Shown piece by piece: positions 8,421 to 33,137 of a DNA stretch of 35,421 bases. The stretch covers positions 1 to 35,421 of the forward strand of contig DXAB01000030.1 of NCBI GenBank assembly GCA_019117265.1. The letters run 5' to 3'. The position numbers and the translations under genes are program-made. This stretch comes from Candidatus Olsenella pullicola (GTDB taxonomy: Bacteria; Actinomycetota; Coriobacteriia; Coriobacteriales; Atopobiaceae). The notes beneath the pieces were generated by a model. The model saw nothing but the letters and a program-made list of their open reading frames with translations. It was not told the origin of the DNA and made no database searches. Numbering within the stretch: position 1 is the stretch's first letter; each line of letters begins with the position of its first letter.

Positions 8421-8433
8421 CCTGACAAGGGTG

Positions 8434-8493
8434 ATGACAAGGGTGACAGGGTAACTTGTCATCATGACAAAGGTGACAGGGTAGTTTGTCATC
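8434..8493. repeat. Tandem pair of 30-bp TGAC-family palindromic units
   Basis: atgacaagggtgacagggtaacttgtcatc (8434-8463) and atgacaaaggtgacagggtagtttgtcatc (8464-8493), 27/30 identical; a partial copy (tgacaagggtg) precedes. Confidence 0.9.
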
Positions 8494-8504
8494 ATGTCGA
8501 CGCC

Positions 8505-8655: not shown

Positions 8656-9024
8656 GGGGGTGACTGGTTTCGACAGGGTGGGTCTGAGATGGGCAGCAGG
8701 CCGTGGTCTCCTCGCCACGTTAAACAGGGGTACCGTCAAATTGAATTGACGACAACAACTCTTTTGAGCCCCAGCTGGCTCTCGCTGCTTAATTAAATAG
8801 CGGCGCGTCAAAGCGGGAATCGCTCCCGTTCTCGCGGCGACGTCATTTGAGGGAGATGCTCGAGCGGACGTAGCCGGTATGCCGCTCGAAAAGACCGAAC
8901 CGGCTGGGACGCCAAGCGCGGGTTGCCGGGTGCGCGGCGTCCAAGACCCAACCGGTAACTGAGCCTGGAGACACCTGTCAGGGATCTGCTTTGGACCGGA
9001 GTTCGATTCTCCGCACCTCCACCA
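8656..9024 (+). ncRNA. ssrA: Transfer-messenger RNA (tmRNA)
   Basis: 5' GGGGGTGACTGGTTTCGACAGGGTGGG and 3' GGACCGGAGTTCGATTCTCCGCACCTCCACCA; 7-bp acceptor stem GGGGGTG/CACCTCC; tag frame GAC GAC AAC AAC TCT TTT GAG CCC CAG CTG GCT CTC GCT GCT TAA = DDNNSFEPQLALAA* (8748-8792). Confidence 0.97.
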
Positions 9025-9118: not shown

Positions 9119-10030
9119 ATGTCAGCCCAGGCCCAGAAGACCAACGTACCCGCGCTCGTGCTGGAGGGCGGCGGGTTTCGTGGGATGTTCACCGCGGGCG
9201 TGCTCGACGTGCTGCAGGAGCGAGGGCTCACCGGCTTCTCGAGCATCTGGGGCGTCTCGGCCGGCGCCGTCAACGGCTCCAACTTCCGCTCGCGCCAGAT
9301 TGGCCGTACCATGCGCGACATTCTCGCCTTCCGCGATGACCGGCGCTTCATGTCGCTGTGGTCGTTTGCCACCACGGGCGACATTGCCGGCGTGGACTTC
9401 ATGTACGGCGAGGTCCAGGACCGCCTCGACCCATGCGACCTCGAGACGTTCAACGAGTCCGAGACCCCCTTCTATGTGGTGGTCTCCGATGTGACCTTTG
9501 GCACCCCTGACTACCTGCCCGTACGCCGCTATCCCGAGGATCTCGTGAAGGTGCGCGCCTCCGCCTCGCTGCCCACGGTCTCCCGCATCGTTGAGATTGA
9601 CGGTCATCGCTATCTTGACGGCGGAACCACGGACTCCATCCCGTTTGAGACGGCGATGGGCCTTTCCGGTGCGCGCGAGGTGAGGGGCCATGCCCCCGCG
9701 GAGCGCGCGCTCGTGGTGCTCACGCGTGACCGCGGCTACGTGCGCGGAGGTGGCTCCGAGGCCATCGCCCTCAAGTCCCACCTCTACGACGCCTACCCGT
9801 ATTACCTCGAGGCGCTCCGCACGCGCGGCGAGCGCTACAACGCGCAGCGCGAGCGCCTGTGGGAGCTCGAGCGCGAGGGGCGCTGCCTCGTGATCGCCCC
9901 CGAGGAGCCCGTGGAGGTGGGCTCGTCCACGCGCGACGGAGAGTCCCTGCTCACGCTCTACGTTGCGGGACGCCGCCAGACCGAGGCGCGCCTCGCCGAG
10001 ATTGACGCCTTCCTCTGCGAGGACTGTTAA
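9119..10030 (+). CDS. Patatin-like phospholipase family protein
   Basis: ALVLEGGGFRGMFTAGVLDVLQERG (oxyanion GGGxRG), GVSAGAVNG (GxSxG), YLDGGTTDSIPF (DGG); ATG 9119 preceded by GGAAGG. Confidence 0.92.
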   Translation: MSAQAQKTNVPALVLEGGGFRGMFTAGVLDVLQERGLTGFSSIWGVSAGAVNGSNFRSRQIGRTMRDILAFRDDRRFMSLWSFATTGDIAGVDFMYGEVQDRLDPCDLETFNESETPFYVVVSDVTFGTPDYLPVRRYPEDLVKVRASASLPTVSRIVEIDGHRYLDGGTTDSIPFETAMGLSGAREVRGHAPAERALVVLTRDRGYVRGGGSEAIALKSHLYDAYPYYLEALRTRGERYNAQRERLWELEREGRCLVIAPEEPVEVGSSTRDGESLLTLYVAGRRQTEARLAEIDAFLCEDC

Positions 10031-23539: not shown

Positions 23540-23632
23540 CATGACAAGGGAACATGACAAAGGTGACAGGGTTGTTTGTCAGGTTTTTTCTGACAAACAA
23601 CCCTGTCACCTTTGTCATGTTCCCCTGTCATG
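23540..23632. repeat. Long TGAC-family inverted repeat: 43-bp arms, 1 mismatch, GTTTTTT loop
   Basis: Arm 23540-23582 catgacaagggaacatgacaaaggtgacagggttgtttgtcag; loop gtttttt; arm 23590-23632 is its reverse complement except one position. Confidence 0.95.
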
Positions 23633-23725
23633 TTGTGGCGTAAACCGCGCCGGTTGTGCACGTGCCTGAAGTTGGGTTGCTCAGGTTACACTAAGCTGAC
23701 TGAAGTTCCGGCGCGAAGGACCTCC

Positions 23726-25048
23726 ATGGATGAGCTGCTACAGAGCTTTGCGACCACGTTTGGCGCGAGCATGGCCTCGCTCTACAACGCGTCCTTCGCG
23801 CTCTCCCTCGTGCTGTTACTCACGAAGTTTCACGGTGGCGGAAGACGTCTCGCCTGGCTTTTGCCGGTCAGGTTTGCGATTGCGCTGCCCGTCGTGTGGC
23901 TCCTCGGCACCATAAGCGACCTGATCTTTCCCAACTCCATCACGTGGACCGTTGCTCCCACCATCGTGTGCGGCCTCATCTTCTGGGATCGCAGCACCCC
24001 CGCCCAACTGGTGCGCATTGCGCTCGTCATGTGCTCGTGGCTCTACTCGCTCTCCGTTGCGGACATGCTCAACGTGGAGCTTCACGGCGGGATCGAGCTT
24101 GCGGCGGCCATCTCGCTCGCCTACATGCTGCTCCTGAGGGTCGTTCTCGTTCTTCTTGAGCGCCACAACTACCTTGACGGGGAGAACGTCTCGCTCTCCT
24201 TTGTGTTTCCCGTGCTCTTTGTGTGCGCCTCCGGGCTAGCGGAGCGCACCATCCTCTACCTGCGCTCGGACTTTGGCTTTGTCTACTACTCGGCAAGCAC
24301 GCTCGAGAGCTTCCTCACCTGCCTCAACGGTCAGCTCGCCCAGCTCGTGGTCTACTGGGCCGTGCTGCGCCTGGCGCGCGAGTTCAGGGACAAGGAGCGC
24401 ATCCAGGCCGAGCGCCACCTCATGGAGAGCCGCTACGAGGCGCTCGGCGTCTACCGCGAGAGCGGGGAGAGTCTGCGCCGCCTGCGCCACGAGGTGAAGA
24501 ACCAGTATGCCTACATCCGCATGTTGCTCGAGCAGAAGGACTACCGTCGCGCCGAGGAGTTCTTCGGCGAGATGTCCATGCGGGCAAACCCCACGTTCTC
24601 ATGGGTGAGCTCAGGAAACGACCTGGTGGACGACATCGTCAACCTCGAGGTCTCCAAGGCGCGCGCGGCAGGCGTGGAGATAAGCTCGCGCATTGCCGTG
24701 CCTGCCGAGCTGCCCTACGAGGAGATCGACCTCTGCAGCCTGCTCATGAACCTGCTGGACAACGCCATCGAGGCCTGCGAGGGCGCGGACGAGAAGAACG
24801 TGCGGCTGGGCATCGTGGCCGACCAGGGGGCGCTCGTGGTGACGGTGGTGAACCCGGCGACGCAACGTCCGCACTTCTCGGAGGAGGGGACTCCGGAGAC
24901 CACAAAGCGCGACAAGGAGAACCACGGTCTGGGCACCTCGATCGTGCGCTCCGTTGCCGAGAAGTACGACGGCGCCGCCGACTTCTCCTACGAGGAGGGG
25001 GAGTTCACCGCTCGGGTGATGCTCGCGCTGCCCGATGCGCCATCATGA
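23726..25048 (+). CDS. AgrC-like sensor histidine kinase (multi-TM N-terminus, GHKL ATPase)
   Basis: Hydrophobic N-terminal half; LRRLRHEVKNQYAYIRMLLEQKDY phosphoacceptor-like helix; LCSLLMNLLDNAIEACEG N-box; NHGLGTSIVRSVAEKYDG. ATG 23726. Confidence 0.9.
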   Translation: MDELLQSFATTFGASMASLYNASFALSLVLLLTKFHGGGRRLAWLLPVRFAIALPVVWLLGTISDLIFPNSITWTVAPTIVCGLIFWDRSTPAQLVRIALVMCSWLYSLSVADMLNVELHGGIELAAAISLAYMLLLRVVLVLLERHNYLDGENVSLSFVFPVLFVCASGLAERTILYLRSDFGFVYYSASTLESFLTCLNGQLAQLVVYWAVLRLAREFRDKERIQAERHLMESRYEALGVYRESGESLRRLRHEVKNQYAYIRMLLEQKDYRRAEEFFGEMSMRANPTFSWVSSGNDLVDDIVNLEVSKARAAGVEISSRIAVPAELPYEEIDLCSLLMNLLDNAIEACEGADEKNVRLGIVADQGALVVTVVNPATQRPHFSEEGTPETTKRDKENHGLGTSIVRSVAEKYDGAADFSYEEGEFTARVMLALPDAPS

Positions 25049-25130: not shown

Positions 25131-25865
25131 ATGCTTCAGTATCACGTTGCCGTCTGCGACGACGAGCGCTTTGCAGCGGACGCCATAGCCAGCGCCGCCG
25201 AGCGCGAGCTCTCGCGCCGGGGCGCCGAGGCCGAGATGGAGGTCTACACCGTCCTGGAGGATCTCGCCAAAAGGATGGACTCCGTAGGTTTTGACCTGGT
25301 GCTCCTTGACATTGAGATGCCTGGCATCGACGGCATCCAGTTTGGGCGCGCCCTGCGTGAGATTGGCTTTGGGACGGACATCATCTACGTCTCAAACAGC
25401 GAGGACCGCGTCTTTGAGTCCCTCTCGCTGCGACCCCTCGGCTTTGTGCGCAAGAGCCACTTCAACCAGGACATGGCCGACGCCATCGAGACCTTCGTGC
25501 GCGAGCGCCGCAAGACGAGCACCAACCGCACCATCACGCTCAAGATGGCGCACGCCATGGGAACCTTTGCCATCGACGAGATAGCCTACGTGGAGGCGCA
25601 CCGCCGCGACAAGGTCGTGCACCTGGCAAACGGCCGCACCGAGGAGGTCCTGACCACCCTCGACGAGATGGGCGAGAAGCTCGCGCCGTTTGGGTTCTTC
25701 CGCGTGCACAAGGGGTTTCTCGTCAACTTTGCCCACGTGCGGCAACTGACCTCCCAGGGCTTTGTGGTGGGAAAGGACCTCGTGCCCATCGGCCGCTCCA
25801 AGGTGGCCGAGGCTCGCCGTGCCTACATGGACTACCTGAGCAACAAGAACTCGATCATGCTCTGA
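25131..25865 (+). CDS. LytTR-family response regulator (AgrA/LytR type)
   Basis: VAVCDDERFAADAIA, FDLVLLDIEMPGIDGIQFGRALRE receiver; LytTR domain IDEIAYVEAHRRDKVVHLANGRTEEVLTTLDEM...FFRVHKGFLVNFAHVRQLT. ATG 25131 after GGGGGAAGG. Confidence 0.94.
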   Translation: MLQYHVAVCDDERFAADAIASAAERELSRRGAEAEMEVYTVLEDLAKRMDSVGFDLVLLDIEMPGIDGIQFGRALREIGFGTDIIYVSNSEDRVFESLSLRPLGFVRKSHFNQDMADAIETFVRERRKTSTNRTITLKMAHAMGTFAIDEIAYVEAHRRDKVVHLANGRTEEVLTTLDEMGEKLAPFGFFRVHKGFLVNFAHVRQLTSQGFVVGKDLVPIGRSKVAEARRAYMDYLSNKNSIML

Positions 25866-25867
25866 CC

Positions 25868-25890
25868 TGACGCTGGTGACACTGGCGTCA
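25868..25890. repeat. Divergent TGAC-type palindrome
   Basis: TGACGCTGGTGACACTGGCGTCA, TGACGC/GCGTCA ends around GGTGACA, 2 nt after the regulator stop. Confidence 0.6.
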
Positions 25891-25968
25891 GAGCAAATTG
25901 TCATGCGCGTCTTCCGCCAACCGCTCGCCGGCTCTTCCATACCGCTCACGACCAGTGCTTTATTGCAG

Positions 25969-26033
25969 TTGGTGACGAGAAAAACGCCATTGGTGCAACG
26001 CGTGCGCTTTGGTGCGACGCGTCCTGCTGTGTG
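25969..26033 (+). promoter_or_regulatory. Four direct repeats (TTGGTG-like), candidate LytTR regulator binding sites
   Basis: TTGGTG at 25969, 25990, 26009 and TGTGTG at 26028; spacing 21, 19, 19 bp; followed by ACG/ACGCG elements. Confidence 0.6.
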
Positions 26034-26217
26034 ACGCGCGCCCGCTCCAGCAACTTTTCAGCTTCCTATCGTTAACCGTGAGAGGTCTGGCCCCCGGCCG
26101 GCTCTCCCTCCCTTCCGGGGCCGGCCTCGTCCGGCCCTTTGAGGGGAGATTCGGTTAGGTCCCGCCAGCGCGCGGGTGAAACGCGCCCATACTGGGCGGC
26201 ATAGGGAAGGGAAGGAA

Positions 26218-29200
26218 ATGAGAAGCATGAGAAGTGGCATTACGCGCAGGGGCTTTGTCCTGGGCACCGCGGCCGCGGCCGTCATGGCCGGGCTCGCGGG
26301 CTGCGACAACGGCGGCGGCCAGGGTGCCGCGCCGAGCAAGGAGGAGTCTGTTGCCCCGGCGCTGCCGGAGGACAACCTCTATTACGAGAGCTCCTATGAA
26401 TATACCGCCGAAGGCGAGCAACAGCTCGTTGCCGACGAGATGGCGCTTGGCGCACGCATTGTCAACGAGGGCGTGGTCCTGCTCAAGAACGAGGCCGCGG
26501 CCCTTCCTCTTGTCACCTCCGACGGAACGGTGACCGCTTTCGGCAACGCCGGTCCCGCCTATCACTCGGGCTTTGACGAGGCCATGAAGGAGGCGGGCTT
26601 CTCCTTCAACGACGCCGCCTGGGAGTTCTACACCAACGGCACCCAAAACGTCCTCGGCTGGCAGGTCAACGAGAACCCGTGGGAGGATGTGCGGGCAGCT
26701 GGCTTTATCTCCGATGACGGCGGCGTGGCGATTGTCTTCCTGGGTCGCCGCGGACACGAGGGCTCTGATACCCAGTGGTATGAGGATCACGACTACCTTG
26801 CCCTCTCCCAGGAGGAGAAGGACATGCTGAACGGTGTGGCCGAGCTTCGTCGTTCGGGCGCCTTCTCCAAGATGGTCGTTGCGGTGAGCACCTCCAACAC
26901 CATCAGCTGGGAGGACGGCCCTTGGTCCGATGCCGTTGATGCCCTGCTCTGGTACGGCAACATCAGCTCTTCTGGCTACGGCGCCGCTCTTCCCTACGGC
27001 ATTCCGGCCTTTGTGCAGGTGCTGAGCGGCGAAGCTAACCCCTCTGGTCGTCTCTCTGACACCGTCTACAAGAACAACCGTCTGAACCCCGTCATGGCCA
27101 ACTTCGGCCGCGTTGACGCCGACCTCTCCGAGCTCTCCGATGGCAAGCTCGACGAGATCTCGCGCGAAAACGATGAGTGGCGCCCCTCCAACACCAAGGG
27201 CAACCACTGGCGCCATGACTACGTCTATGCCGAGGGCATTTACCTGGGTTATCGCTATCCCGAGACGCGCTATGAGGATAAGGTGCTCGGCCAGGGCAAC
27301 GCCGGCGACTTCGACTACAGCTCCTATGTGGCCTACCCGTTTGGCGCGGGCCTCTCCTACACAACCTTCTCGTACTCTGACTTTGCCGTCGAGGAGGCGG
27401 ACGACGCCTTCACCGTCACGGTGACCGTCACCAATGACGGAAAGGTTGCGGGCAAGCACGCCGCCTGCGTCTACGTGCAGACCCCCTACACCGACTACGA
27501 CGTCGAGAACGGCATCGAGAAGGCTTCCATCGAGCTCAAGGGCTACGAGAAGACCCAGGAGCTCGAGCCCGGTGCCTCCGAGACGCTCACCATCGCCGTC
27601 TCCAAGCACGAGCTCGCCGCCTATGACGCCAACAAGGCCAAGACCTACATCCTCGACGACGGCGACTACTACTTCACCGTTGCCGCCTCCGCGCACGACG
27701 CCATCAACAACGTGCTTGCCGCCAAGGGCATGACCACCGAGGACGGCATGACCGCCGATGGCGACGACTCCCTCATCTGGGTCTGGAACAACGGCACCTT
27801 CGATGACACCACGTATGCGGTCTCCGCGGTCACGGGCAACGCCATCACCAACCTCTTTGATGGCGTCGACCCCAACAAGAACCCGCTCATGAGCGACAAG
27901 AACGCCATCACCTGGCTCTCCCGCTCCGACTGGGAGGCGACGTTCCCGACTAAGCCCGCCAACCTGGTCTATACCGACGAGGTGGCCGACAAGGCAAAGC
28001 CCATCTCCTACCAGGCTGGTTCTGGCGACGCGAGCTCCGTACCCACTCACGAGTTTGGCAAGGACTCCGACCTCGTCCTCGTGGACATGCGCGAGAAGGA
28101 CTACGATGACGGCGACTGGGAGACCCTCGTCTCCAAGCTCACCTACGAGGAGATGGTGGACTTCATCAACGATCCGGAGAGCGCGATTGCCAAGATAGGC
28201 AAGCCCGAGACCGTTGCCGGCAACGGCTCGCAGGGCTGGACCCCGCTCTTTACCGTGTCTGGCCTCTCGGGCGTGACCTGGCCCTCCAAGGAGACCGTCA
28301 CCAACACCTACAGCACCGAGGTTCACGAGGGGGTCGGCCGCCTTACCGGCGAGAACCTCCTGCACTCCGCAACGGTGGAGAGCAAGAACGTCTCCCTTTA
28401 CGGTTGGAGCTGCAACGCCCATCGCTCCCCGTACTCGGGCCGCAACTTTGAGTACTACTCCGAGGACCCGTACCTGGGCGGTCGCGCCTGCGCCGAGGAG
28501 ACCCGCGGCATCATCGAGAAGGGCGCACTCGTCTACACCAAGCACTGCGCCGGGAACGACCAGGAGGAGTACCGCCACGGCGTGCCGTCCTGGGCCAACG
28601 AGCAGACGCTGCGCGAGATCTACCTCCGTCAGTTTGAGAAGGCCGTCGTCGAGGGTGGCGCCAACGGCATCATGAGCGGCTTCCACCGTCTGGGTATGGA
28701 CTGGTCTGGCGAGAACCACGCGCTGCTCGTCGACTGGCTCGAGGGCGAGCTTGGCTACACGGGCACCACGATCACCGACCAGTTTGAGGCGCCGCAGATG
28801 GACTCCGTCGACGGCCTGCTCAACGGCACGCACGTCTGGCTCGGCACCACGAGCGATAATGACGGGCGCAAGGTCTGCCATGCCGTCCTGCTTCAGGATG
28901 ACTACAAGAACGACCCGGTTATCCAGGACGCGCTCTTTGGTGCCGTGCACCGCGCCCTCTGCAACTACGCTCACTCGCTTGCCATGAACGGCCTTGCGCA
29001 CGACTACGTGTTCACTGGCAACCAGCCGCTGGTCACCGCAGTTGTCTCCACGGCCGAGGAGGGGACGATCGGCGCGCCGTGCGCCTTCTACGGCGACAAG
29101 ACCTATGTGGCGGAGCAGAGCGGCTTCTTCGGCTCCTCGCGCGGCACGGGCACGTGGGACTACGCCGAGGACAGCGGCCTCACGCTGACCGACTCCGAGG

Positions 29201-30027
29201 GCAACGCGATTGAGGTTTCCGATGACGGCGGCCTCCTGAGCTTTGACGTACCGGTTTCTGGCTCCGTGGCCCCCAACACGATTTCCAAGTACGAGCTGGT
29301 CACGGCCTACAACACGTGCTTCGGTACGAGCTTTGATGCTGGTTCTCAGCCGTCCTTCCAGCTTACGTTTGCCTCCGGCAACGAGGGCGCGACCGGCAAC
29401 GACCCGAGCTCCCTGGAAATTAAGCGCGGCGAGGCCGTCACGCTGCCCGACTGCCCGTACGAGCTCGAGCACATGACCTTTGACGGGTGGAGCATCGGTG
29501 GCACCGTCTATCCTGCTGGCTCCGAGTACGTGCCGGACGCTTACGACGATGCTACGGCAGAGGGGGCGTGGTCGGTTACGGTTGTTGCCACAGCAACCAC
29601 GTTTGACGACTACATCTACTCTTACATTCAGGACGCCGGCATCCCCATGGTCCTTCTCGCCGACGGGACCGTTGAGGTCGACCACTACAAGGGCTACGCC
29701 TGCATGGGCACCTGGGAGGTCGAGGGGTCCGGGTCTGGCGAGGGCACGCTCGTCATCAAGAACGAGTCCGGCGAGACGGTTGCCATCGAGCAGGATGGTG
29801 CGAGCGCGACGTATGCGCAGGAGGGCGTCTACTATGACTGGAACCAGCCTGACCAGGGCTACGGCTCCGGCATGTTCCTCGTGATGCTCACGCACACCCT
29901 TGACCTCGCTGCTTTTGCCGAGGCCTATAACGCGGAGTTTGGAACGAGTTACGACGCCGTGAGCGTGGAGACCGGCTCCGCCGAGTTTGCCCTGGAGGAG
30001 ACGGGCGAGCCCAAGTCCGTATTCTAG
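26218..30027 (+). CDS. Glycoside hydrolase family 3 protein, Tat-type lipoprotein, permuted domain order with C-terminal repeat-like extension
   Basis: MRSMRSGITRRGFVLGTAAAAVMAGLAGC (twin-Arg plus lipobox); VNEGVVLLKNEAAALPL; FnIII-like region; then catalytic part GRNFEYYSEDPYLGGRA, KHCAGNDQEEYRHG, GTTITDQFE; C-terminal FDGWSIGGTVYPAGSEYV. ATG 26218 with strong SD. Confidence 0.93.
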   Translation: MRSMRSGITRRGFVLGTAAAAVMAGLAGCDNGGGQGAAPSKEESVAPALPEDNLYYESSYEYTAEGEQQLVADEMALGARIVNEGVVLLKNEAAALPLVTSDGTVTAFGNAGPAYHSGFDEAMKEAGFSFNDAAWEFYTNGTQNVLGWQVNENPWEDVRAAGFISDDGGVAIVFLGRRGHEGSDTQWYEDHDYLALSQEEKDMLNGVAELRRSGAFSKMVVAVSTSNTISWEDGPWSDAVDALLWYGNISSSGYGAALPYGIPAFVQVLSGEANPSGRLSDTVYKNNRLNPVMANFGRVDADLSELSDGKLDEISRENDEWRPSNTKGNHWRHDYVYAEGIYLGYRYPETRYEDKVLGQGNAGDFDYSSYVAYPFGAGLSYTTFSYSDFAVEEADDAFTVTVTVTNDGKVAGKHAACVYVQTPYTDYDVENGIEKASIELKGYEKTQELEPGASETLTIAVSKHELAAYDANKAKTYILDDGDYYFTVAASAHDAINNVLAAKGMTTEDGMTADGDDSLIWVWNNGTFDDTTYAVSAVTGNAITNLFDGVDPNKNPLMSDKNAITWLSRSDWEATFPTKPANLVYTDEVADKAKPISYQAGSGDASSVPTHEFGKDSDLVLVDMREKDYDDGDWETLVSKLTYEEMVDFINDPESAIAKIGKPETVAGNGSQGWTPLFTVSGLSGVTWPSKETVTNTYSTEVHEGVGRLTGENLLHSATVESKNVSLYGWSCNAHRSPYSGRNFEYYSEDPYLGGRACAEETRGIIEKGALVYTKHCAGNDQEEYRHGVPSWANEQTLREIYLRQFEKAVVEGGANGIMSGFHRLGMDWSGENHALLVDWLEGELGYTGTTITDQFEAPQMDSVDGLLNGTHVWLGTTSDNDGRKVCHAVLLQDDYKNDPVIQDALFGAVHRALCNYAHSLAMNGLAHDYVFTGNQPLVTAVVSTAEEGTIGAPCAFYGDKTYVAEQSGFFGSSRGTGTWDYAEDSGLTLTDSEGNAIEVSDDGGLLSFDVPVSGSVAPNTISKYELVTAYNTCFGTSFDAGSQPSFQLTFASGNEGATGNDPSSLEIKRGEAVTLPDCPYELEHMTFDGWSIGGTVYPAGSEYVPDAYDDATAEGAWSVTVVATATTFDDYIYSYIQDAGIPMVLLADGTVEVDHYKGYACMGTWEVEGSGSGEGTLVIKNESGETVAIEQDGASATYAQEGVYYDWNQPDQGYGSGMFLVMLTHTLDLAAFAEAYNAEFGTSYDAVSVETGSAEFALEETGEPKSVF

Positions 30028-30092: not shown

Positions 30093-33000
30093 ATGTCAGA
30101 CAAGCAATCAAAGAAGGGGCGCGCGGGTCGTATCGTCGGCCGGGCGATCGGCGCGGTGCTCGCCGTGGCGTTTGTCGCCCTCATCGTTGCGGCCAACGCC
30201 ATCCTTCCCAACTACACGCAGGTCATCAACTCATATCTTGGCGTCGAGCAGGGCTGGGACAACTCCGGGGCCAAGACCGTGGGCCTTGACCTCGAGTACA
30301 ACAAGGCCGACCACAAGTCCCGCGAGGAGCTGGCCGAGGCCGAGGCCGCGCTCGACGAGCAGATTGCCGGCGAGGGCATCGTCCTTCTTGAGAACGAGGA
30401 CGGCACGCTTCCGCTGGCCGAGGGCACGACGCTCTCCTTTGTGGGCGGCAACGCGCGCTCGCTCGGCGCCGGCTCGGCGGGCATCCTCGCGTCCACGATG
30501 GGCGTTGAGGGGGAGACCGTCGACGCCGTGACGCCCGCGATGGAGGCCGCCGGCCTCAAGGTCAACCAGGAGCTCGTCGAGTTCTACGCTTCCGGCGCGG
30601 GCTCCGAGTACGTGATGGGCCCGGGCTCGGTGAGCTACGGCGACGACGAGGACTTCTCGATCAACGAGTGTCCGCTCTCCGTGATGGAGGAGGCCGGCGT
30701 GCTCGACTCGTTCGAGGGCACCACGCCCGTCTTTGTGATGAGGCGCGTTGCCGGCGAGGGCCGAGACATGCCCCGCTCCATGTACAACCATGCGGACAAT
30801 CCCGAGGACCAGGCCAAGAGCTACCTCGAGCCTGATAGCACCGAGCTTGAGATCCTCAAGTACCTGAACGACAACTTCGACAACGTCATCCTGCTCATCA
30901 CGTCCAACAACGCCCTTGAGCTCGACTGGCTCGAGCAGTTCCCCAACATTAAGTCGGTGCTGTACGCGCCCTCGTTTGGCACATACGGCATCAACGCCCT
31001 GGGCAACGTGCTCACGGGCGCCGTGAACCCCTCCGGCCGCACCAAGGACACCTTTGCCGCGGACGCGCTTGCCGCGCCGGCCGCCCAGAACTTTGGCGAC
31101 TACCAGTACCTTGACGAGAGCGGAGAGCTCACCAAGTACAATTACGTCTCCTACGAGGAGGGCATCTACGTAGGCTATCGCTACTACGAGACCCGCTATG
31201 AGGACGCCGTGCTCGGTCAGGGCAACGCCGGCGAGTTCAGCTACGACGACGAGGTCTGCTACCCGCTGGGCTACGGTCTCTCCTACACCACCTTCGAGTG
31301 GTCGGACTTCTCGACCGCATGGTCCGGTGACGAGTGCACGGCCACGGTCACGGTGACCAACACCGGTGACGTGGCGGGCAAGGACGTCGTCGAGCTCTAC
31401 GCGCAGTCCCCCTACACGGACTACGACCGCGAGAACGGCGTGGAGAAGGCCTCCGTGGTGCTCGTGGGCTTTGCCAAGACGGGCCTGCTCGAGCCCGGCG
31501 AGTCCCAGACGGTGGAGATCACCTTCGACGAGTACCAGCTTGCCTCCTATGACTACCTGGGCGCCAAGACGTGGATTCTCGATGCGGGCACCTACTACGT
31601 GACCGCTGGCAAGAACGCGCACGACGCCGTGAACAACGTGCTTGCCGCCAAGGGCGCCTCCGTGGAGGGCAACACCGGCATGGTTGCCGAGTACGTGCCG
31701 GACAACACCGAGGTTGACGCCACCACCTACGCCACGGACACGCTCACCGGCGAGGAGATTACCAACCGTCTGGACGACGCCGCGGGCGACCTCACCTACC
31801 TCACGCGCTCCAACTGGGAGGGCACGTTCCCCACGCATGACGGAGAGCCCACCTCGCAGGTCTCCACCTGGGGCAACGAGATCAATGGCGAGGACGGCGT
31901 GAGCTACACCTACGGCAAGACGGCCTCCGCCGACCTTGTCGCCGAGCTCGACTCCACCGACTCCGGTAACCCCAACGTCGAGTCCTGGGACGGCGAGCTC
32001 GTGTACGGCGCCAAGAACGGCCTCACGCTCATCCAGATGCGCGGCCTTGAGTACGACGATCCACAGTGGGACGCCCTTCTTGACCAGCTGACCCCCGAGG
32101 ACTATGACATCCTCATCACCCAGGCCGGCTACGGCACGGACTACATCGCCTCCGTCGAGAAGCCGGCCGGCACCGATGCGGACTCCACCTCCGGCTGGAG
32201 CTGGGGCGGCATTGGCATGACCTTCTGCAACCCCGCCATGGTGGCGCAGACCTGGAACGTCGAGCTTGCCTACGAGCTGGGCATCTGCATTGGTGACGAG
32301 AGCCTCTACGGCGGCGCCACCGGCTGGTATGCCCCGGCCATGAACATCAACCGCACCGCCTTCTCCGGCCGCGCCGGCGAGTACTTCTCCGAGGACGGGT
32401 TCCTCTCCGGCGCGCTGGCCTCCCAGGAGGTCAAGGGCGCTGCCGAGAAGGGCGTCTACACCCTGATCAAGCACTTTGCCTTCAACGACCAGGAGAACCA
32501 CCGCGGCGACCGTTCCGGACAGTACTCCATGGCCACCTGGCTCAACGAGCAGTCCGCTCGCGAGATCTACCTGCGTCCCTTCGAGCTCTGCATGAAGGTG
32601 GGCGACGTCGACGTCAACTACGTCAAGGACAACGGCGACGGCACCTACGAGGCAGCCACCACGCAGATCGCCGCGTGCCAGGGTCTCATGACCGCCTTCA
32701 ACCGCATCGGCTCCACGTGGGTGGGCGGCGACTACGACCTTATCACCGGCATTGTGCGCAACGAGTGGGGCTTTGACGGCTGGATCATCACCGACAACGC
32801 CGACACGGGCGTCTTCATGAATGCCGGCCAGATGATCCAGGCGGGCGCCGACTCAAAGCTCACCGCGAGCGACCCCACGGACACCTGGACCTTCGACGAG
32901 AACGACCCCGTGTCCTACAACTACGCCCGCGACGCCGTGCACCACCTGCTCTACGTGATGGCCAACACGCACTGCATGAACGGCGCCATGCCCGGCAGCC

Positions 33001-33137
33001 ACTACACCTCCGGCGTGGGCGGCATGCAGAAGGCCGATCTCATCCGCTGGGGCATCACCGGCGTTGCCGCCGTGGGCCTCGTGGTGACGGGGGCCCTCCT
33101 CACTCGCAGCTTCCTCAAGTCCCACAACGCGTCATGA
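30093..33137 (+). CDS. Glycoside hydrolase family 3 protein, membrane-anchored, permuted domain order
   Basis: N-terminal TM (GRAIGAVLAVAFVALIVAANAIL), AGEGIVLLENEDGTLPL, GYRYYETRYEDAVLGQGNAGEF, GRAGEYFSEDGFLSG, IKHFAFNDQENHR, WGFDGWIITDNADTGVF, C-terminal TM (GITGVAAVGLVVTGALL). Confidence 0.94.
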   Translation: MSDKQSKKGRAGRIVGRAIGAVLAVAFVALIVAANAILPNYTQVINSYLGVEQGWDNSGAKTVGLDLEYNKADHKSREELAEAEAALDEQIAGEGIVLLENEDGTLPLAEGTTLSFVGGNARSLGAGSAGILASTMGVEGETVDAVTPAMEAAGLKVNQELVEFYASGAGSEYVMGPGSVSYGDDEDFSINECPLSVMEEAGVLDSFEGTTPVFVMRRVAGEGRDMPRSMYNHADNPEDQAKSYLEPDSTELEILKYLNDNFDNVILLITSNNALELDWLEQFPNIKSVLYAPSFGTYGINALGNVLTGAVNPSGRTKDTFAADALAAPAAQNFGDYQYLDESGELTKYNYVSYEEGIYVGYRYYETRYEDAVLGQGNAGEFSYDDEVCYPLGYGLSYTTFEWSDFSTAWSGDECTATVTVTNTGDVAGKDVVELYAQSPYTDYDRENGVEKASVVLVGFAKTGLLEPGESQTVEITFDEYQLASYDYLGAKTWILDAGTYYVTAGKNAHDAVNNVLAAKGASVEGNTGMVAEYVPDNTEVDATTYATDTLTGEEITNRLDDAAGDLTYLTRSNWEGTFPTHDGEPTSQVSTWGNEINGEDGVSYTYGKTASADLVAELDSTDSGNPNVESWDGELVYGAKNGLTLIQMRGLEYDDPQWDALLDQLTPEDYDILITQAGYGTDYIASVEKPAGTDADSTSGWSWGGIGMTFCNPAMVAQTWNVELAYELGICIGDESLYGGATGWYAPAMNINRTAFSGRAGEYFSEDGFLSGALASQEVKGAAEKGVYTLIKHFAFNDQENHRGDRSGQYSMATWLNEQSAREIYLRPFELCMKVGDVDVNYVKDNGDGTYEAATTQIAACQGLMTAFNRIGSTWVGGDYDLITGIVRNEWGFDGWIITDNADTGVFMNAGQMIQAGADSKLTASDPTDTWTFDENDPVSYNYARDAVHHLLYVMANTHCMNGAMPGSHYTSGVGGMQKADLIRWGITGVAAVGLVVTGALLTRSFLKSHNAS

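Follow-up and report, generated by a model that had tools for sequence, protein, structure and literature searches.

Gene organization and repeats of the locus

The window (the whole stretch of 35,421 nucleotides that was analysed) is contig C161. The genome measures 2.26 Mb and encodes 11 LytTR domains. The window carries, in this order, genes for a GHKL kinase and a LytTR response regulator, a set of short repeats, two GH3 glycoside hydrolase genes (GH3a and GH3b) and an alpha/beta hydrolase gene (Table 1). In both GH3 proteins the GH3 C domain and an Fn3-like domain precede the N domain (Pfam). The regulator ORF is readable from ATG 25035; relatives align from residue 28–33, which places the start at ATG 25131. 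The earlier note on this DNA had taken the gene adjacent to the repeats for a LytTR regulator, and the Pfam LytTR match bears this out. The matches listed for the full regulator in a search of PDB sequences were to receiver domains, with no LytTR–DNA complex among them, and the ORF list held no extra ORF in the interval covering the kinase, the regulator and GH3a.

Table 1. Features of the kinase–regulator–GH3 locus. Conservation is defined in the text.
Feature	Position	Strand	Sequence and remarks
Putative autoregulatory operator of the kinase–regulator operon	23627..23661	+	GTTGTGGCG / GGTTGTGC; TTGTG copies 21 bp apart
Sensor kinase, GHKL ATPase domain	23726..25048	+	Pfam HATPase_c_5 2.4e-20; ATG 23726 kept in relatives
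LytTR response regulator	25131..25865	+	Pfam Response_reg 3.6e-11, LytTR 8e-13
Half-site 1	25920..25928	+	ACCGCTCGC; conservation 0.93; CCGCTC unchanged in 8/8 genus genomes; present in G087 and G088, missing in G036
Half-site 2	25941..25949	+	ACCGCTCAC; conservation 0.86; 21 bp from half-site 1
Half-site 3 (earlier copy 1)	25965..25977	+	GCAGTTGGTGACG; conservation 0.96; in 11/11 genomes
Half-site 4 (earlier copy 2)	25986..25995	+	GCCATTGGTG; conservation 0.91; 21 bp from half-site 3; in 11/11 genomes
Half-site 5 (earlier copy 3)	26007..26018	+	CTTTGGTGCGAC; conservation 0.82; 19 bp after half-site 4
Half-site 6 (earlier copy 4)	26025..26037	+	holds TGTGTGACG; conservation 0.73, lowest of six
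Probable core promoter	26057..26072	+	TTCAGCTTCCTATCGT, TATCGT = -10; near-invariant in eight genus genomes
Conserved leader	26079..26217	+	hairpins and C/U-rich tract (26105-26116) complementary to ribosome-binding region (26205-26216)
GH3a, probable exported lipoprotein-like glycoside hydrolase	26218..30027	+	Pfam, sequence; GH3 C domain before N domain
GH3b, second glycoside hydrolase	30093..33137	+	Pfam, sequence; domain order as GH3a

A motif scan of the whole window located TTGGTG on the forward strand at 25969, 25990 and 26009 and TGTGTG at 26028, exactly reproducing the positions and the 21, 19 and 19 bp spacings reported earlier; the only other forward-strand copies of TTGGTG lie at 28937 and 32290. 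The earlier note had described four repeats on one face of the DNA. All four exist, but the array is larger and comprises six half-sites, the additional two forming a distal pair upstream (25920 and 25941) with the layout ACCGCTCGC-12 bp-ACCGCTCAC. The placement on one face holds for the 21 bp steps but not for the 19 bp steps, which amount to ~1.8 helical turns and therefore set copies 3 and 4 off the face of copies 1 and 2. All six half-sites run in the same direction and lie upstream of the -10-like sequence TTCAGCTTCCTATCGT.

Three or more identical hexamers at steps of 18–22 bp were obtained in four of 5000 dinucleotide shuffles of the regulator–GH3a intergenic region. Hexamer chains occur in 12 of 702 overlapping contig windows, a count that includes those holding the present array, and a second chain lies near 9530 on the same contig. 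Because of this further chain the repetition alone is just moderately unusual, and the case for an operator was therefore built on comparison across genomes.

Conservation within and beyond the genus

The genus set consisted of 31 Thermophilibacter/Olsenella genomes, the relatives including Thermophilibacter provencensis, Olsenella profusa and other Olsenella. Eight genomes, the window's included, have both the regulator and a full-length GH3a, and neither occurs alone in any of the 31. In the seven other bearers the identity is 89–99% for the regulator and 54–98% for GH3a, which is split over two contigs in G022. Conservation was expressed as the mean share of the commonest base in the eight genus genomes. 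The half-sites (Table 1) are conserved above the spacers that separate them (0.75, 0.78, 0.72, 0.65 and 0.58 from half-site 1 to half-site 6), and the array is thus more than chance; the value just upstream of the block is 0.50. The conserved block is near-gapless and extends from CCGCTC (25921) to TATCGT (26072). Variants of half-site 2 are ACCGTTTGCGACC in G022 and ACCGTCTGCGACC in G029.

Three genomes from two other genera (G087, G088 and G036) encode a regulator that is 61–64% identical and keep the kinase–regulator–GH3–GH3 order. Half-sites 3 and 4 are kept at 21 bp in the GH3 promoters of all three, the distal pair is kept in two of the three, and the gap from distal to proximal pair is constant at 24–25 bp. 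The TTGGTG of half-site 5 lies 21 bp from half-site 4 in G087 and G088, compared with 19 bp in the genus. Half-site 6 is weak in the window genome, whereas G087, G088 and G036 have a clear GTT-type copy; it reads CAGTTCGTACG, CAGTTCATGCG and GCGTTGGTGGC in the other-genus relatives. Phylogenetic footprinting had been named in the earlier note as a check, and loss of the repeats from relatives that keep the gene order as grounds for giving up the operator. Where the gene order is kept the repeats are conserved, in 11 genomes and three genera.

The DNA directly 3' of the regulator gene is variable and holds either dispersed palindromes or, in G022, an inserted gene. The G022 insert (C216:2643-4224; L011, L041) is ~1.6 kb long, ATPase-like by eye, and sits between the regulator and an intact GH3 promoter block. 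Related dispersed palindromes were found at 8423-8496, ~23550-23625 and 25866-25905 (TGACAAAGGTGACA...), along with a hairpin, CTGACGCTGGTGACACTGGCGTCAG, past the regulator stop codon; they have partial matches at many sites in G000 and G009, and one copy directly precedes the tmRNA gene at 8656. With such palindromes directly upstream of the array and hexamer chains elsewhere in the contig, the array might be taken for a chance repeat or a dispersed repetitive element with no regulatory role. This is extremely improbable and already contradicted by the footprints, as the array is conserved across three genera and the conserved block starts at the end of the variable palindromes and of the G022 insertion.

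A second site upstream of the kinase gene and its specificity

TTGTG-type repeats at 21 bp upstream of the kinase gene are common to the eight genus genomes, and the kinase-promoter repeat aligns without gaps to the GH3 promoter pair. A weight matrix trained on the genus GH3 promoters only picked ACAGTTGGTGACG-8-GCCGTTTGTAACC upstream of the kinase gene in G088 and TCCGGTGGTGACA-8-GCTGTTTGTGACG in G087 (0/2000 shuffles in each case), and the optimal spacing in both was 21 bp when 10–35 bp were tried. The kinase promoters of five genus representatives, pooled, gave 0/1000 shuffles; the window's own repeat taken alone was not significant (p 0.16), and the matrix search recognised no site in the kinase promoter of G036. 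Across both promoters, 21 sites align gaplessly over 35 columns, with eight columns invariant and a central AAA largely kept. The matching 21 bp repeat upstream of the kinase gene points to the autoregulation that the earlier note had offered together with, or in place of, control of the GH3 genes.

A sequence-only model of the site pair was run over the 31 genus genomes and the three other-genus genomes. In module-bearing genomes strong matches (E <= 7e-4) fall in the GH3 promoter and the kinase promoter only (in G036, the GH3 promoter only), and the next-best match in any genome has E 0.017. The window's kinase-promoter match (23629-23660) has E 4.1e-6 and belonged to the training set. Since the listed sites trained the model, their strength is partly by construction and it is the absence of other matches that is informative. 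The sole strong match outside the training set (G002, E 3.1e-6) is a kinase promoter in a deletion scar from which kinase, regulator and GH3a have been lost. At this scar (L273; G002 C9 near 335042) the 3' part of GH3b is fused, in another reading frame, to the kinase promoter and ~25 kinase codons. An exact search for GTTGGTG pairs was too strict, missing the window's own site, and also yielded chance matches.

As the genome has 11 LytTR domains and LytTR half-sites have just a loose common consensus (PMC4847170), a different cellular regulator, such as one of the ten other LytTR regulators, might bind the sites, the adjacent gene being incidental. We consider this improbable: the motif pair is limited to genomes that have the module (or, in the case of G002, had it), whereas other genus genomes also have LytTR/receiver-domain relatives, and the pair also precedes the kinase–regulator operon itself.

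A different LytTR regulator may bind the distal pair, because ACCGCTC pairs occur elsewhere and the matrix scores of the pair are poor. The array would then be mixed and would receive two inputs, with the proximal GTTGGTG sites bound by the neighbouring regulator and the distal ACCGCTC-21-ACCGCTC by the other. Genus genomes without the module regulator have similar ACCGCTC pairs, also 21 bp apart, upstream of GH35, ilvD and rnpB, and the kinase promoter is without such a pair. On the proximal-site matrix half-site 1 has low scores (-2.5 to -9) and half-site 2 comes close to zero. The G022 and G029 variants of half-site 2, however, are close to the proximal half-site GCCGTTCGCGACG of G036, and the constant distal-to-proximal spacing also speaks against two separate inputs, which we regard as possible but doubtful. 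The ACCGCTC-type pairs found before GH35 beta-galactosidase genes, ilvD leaders and rnpB (L181, L155, L157, L162, L165, L173, L154, L179) possibly form a second LytTR regulon.

Several further loci in these genomes (L208, L209, L210, L274-L281) also have a LytTR regulator/kinase pair in the neighbourhood of GH3 genes with this domain order. Three of the four other LytTR–GH3 intergenic regions examined are without a conserved 21 bp repeat and one has it. A divergent regulator/GH3 spacer (G000 C40, G022 C206) carries its own 21 bp repeat, CATCTCATG / CATCTCGTG.

Promoter context, known LytTR systems and interpretation

A sigma-70 and terminator scan of the region found no consensus sigma-70 site and no terminator. 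With TATCGT as the -10 (at 26067), a 17 bp spacer puts the -35 at 26044-26049, where none is recognisable. Half-site 6 ends ~7 bp before this -35 position, which is presumed from TATCGT; published LytTR repeats lie 4–11 bp upstream of the -35 (PMC6193735).

The leader contains four hairpins with compensatory changes between species, a count biased towards them as the stems were picked by eye. By folding energy the leader is no more stable than shuffled sequence, and only in two genomes did masking of the ribosome-binding site clearly surpass shuffles; a translational layer is therefore a lead and not a result. An Rfam search of the region gave no known RNA, RNAalifold on a MAFFT alignment of the leader gave a poor consensus, and a leader covariance model was set aside, the ribosome-binding region being out of register by one base. 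A two-layer switch, combining a cooperative transcription threshold set by six half-sites (at most three dimers, phase-shifted by the 19 bp steps) with a conserved structured leader whose C/U-rich tract would mask the GH3a ribosome-binding site and add translational control, and accompanied by at least one paralogous LytTR/GH3 module with its own diverged 21 bp repeat, seems unlikely.

LytTR operators consist of two repeats of 9–11 nt, direct or inverse (PMC4847170), with a spacer of 11–13 bp and a period of ~21 bp (PMC4847170, PMC6193735). Direct repeats with the 21 bp period make up half-sites 1/2, half-sites 3/4 and the kinase-promoter pair; in the genus, half-sites 5 and 6 follow at 19 bp steps, which differ from this usual spacing. 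A LytTR-domain regulator is genetically linked to the sites, as judged from Pfam, synteny and co-occurrence.

The AgrA half-site is [TA][AC][CA]GTTN[AG][TG], with a period of 21 bp, and we take GCAGTTGGT to fit it at eight of nine positions. AgrA (Staphylococcus aureus agr P2/P3) is a LytTR response regulator whose dimers bind direct repeats preceding a suboptimal promoter (PMC4227749). The present locus likewise combines a LytTR response regulator with direct repeats, and dimer binding is proposed here too; unlike in agr, the putative targets are GH3 genes and the kinase–regulator operon, and no signal-peptide gene was identified at the locus. Both proteins score far below the cut-offs of the agr equivalog models (regulator 23.9 bits versus 400 for AgrA; kinase 22.8 versus 500 for AgrC). 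The NCBIfam BtsR equivalog model gave the regulator 24.9 bits against a cut-off of 246. The BtsR half-site is ACCGCTCA; the distal pair had been considered as a BtsR site, which was dropped because the regulator falls so far below that cut-off.

The HdrR/BrsR-type LRS of Streptococcus mutans have 9 bp direct repeats with 12 bp spacers directly upstream of the promoter and show autoregulation, and the BrsR site ACCACTTAT-12-ACCGCTTAT resembles the distal pair (PMC6193735). In LRS a membrane inhibitor protein accompanies a regulator without a kinase pair, whereas the present system has a GHKL kinase and a regulator with a receiver domain. BtsR and YpdB of Escherichia coli, which are also LytTR response regulators, have operators made of direct repeats in pairs, comparable in length and spacing (PMC4847170), but their kinases are LytS-type and pyruvate-sensing and their targets transporters, compared with a GHKL-type kinase and putative GH3 targets here. 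The Ros-7 Gram-positive polysaccharide utilisation locus of the gut bacterium Roseburia also has a LytTR regulator and kinase beside glycoside hydrolases; it differs in phylum, in its GH25/GH43/GH51 enzymes and in its transporters, and the part of the source drawn on here describes no operator (PMC5320581). Within the literature collection searched, no full text paired LytTR with Olsenella.

An operator array is the best reading because same-direction repeats of ~9 nt, 12 bp spacers and the presence of sites at both promoters fit published LytTR operators. The conservation in 11 genomes, the half-site pattern and the 21 bp spacing argue for the LytTR operator suggested in the earlier note, and we put at roughly 85% the probability that the array is the operator of the neighbouring LytTR regulator, which would activate the GH3 pair and autoregulate the kinase–regulator operon. 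The adjacent GHKL-type kinase would receive a signal, leading to phosphorylation of the regulator, and the phosphorylated regulator would bind as dimers to the pairs 25920/25941, 25965/25986 and probably 26007/26025. Once bound, it would recruit RNA polymerase to the promoter with TATCGT at 26067 and no recognisable -35, and so switch on both GH3 genes; the repeat at 23627-23661 would let it autoregulate its own operon. We infer activation rather than repression because there is no recognisable -35, and by analogy; the neighbouring regulator is the presumptive binder, and the dimer number, start site and signal are likewise proposals.

The array is a well-supported fresh instance of an already known switch type. 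It provides a concrete candidate operator and a two-promoter regulon for an uncharacterised Atopobiaceae LytTR two-component system, together with a pattern by which the further LytTR/GH3 neighbourhoods recurring across the genus can be searched. The results suggest that LytTR kinase–regulator pairs, whose best-known roles are in peptide signalling and virulence control, serve here as dedicated controllers of GH3 glycosidases.
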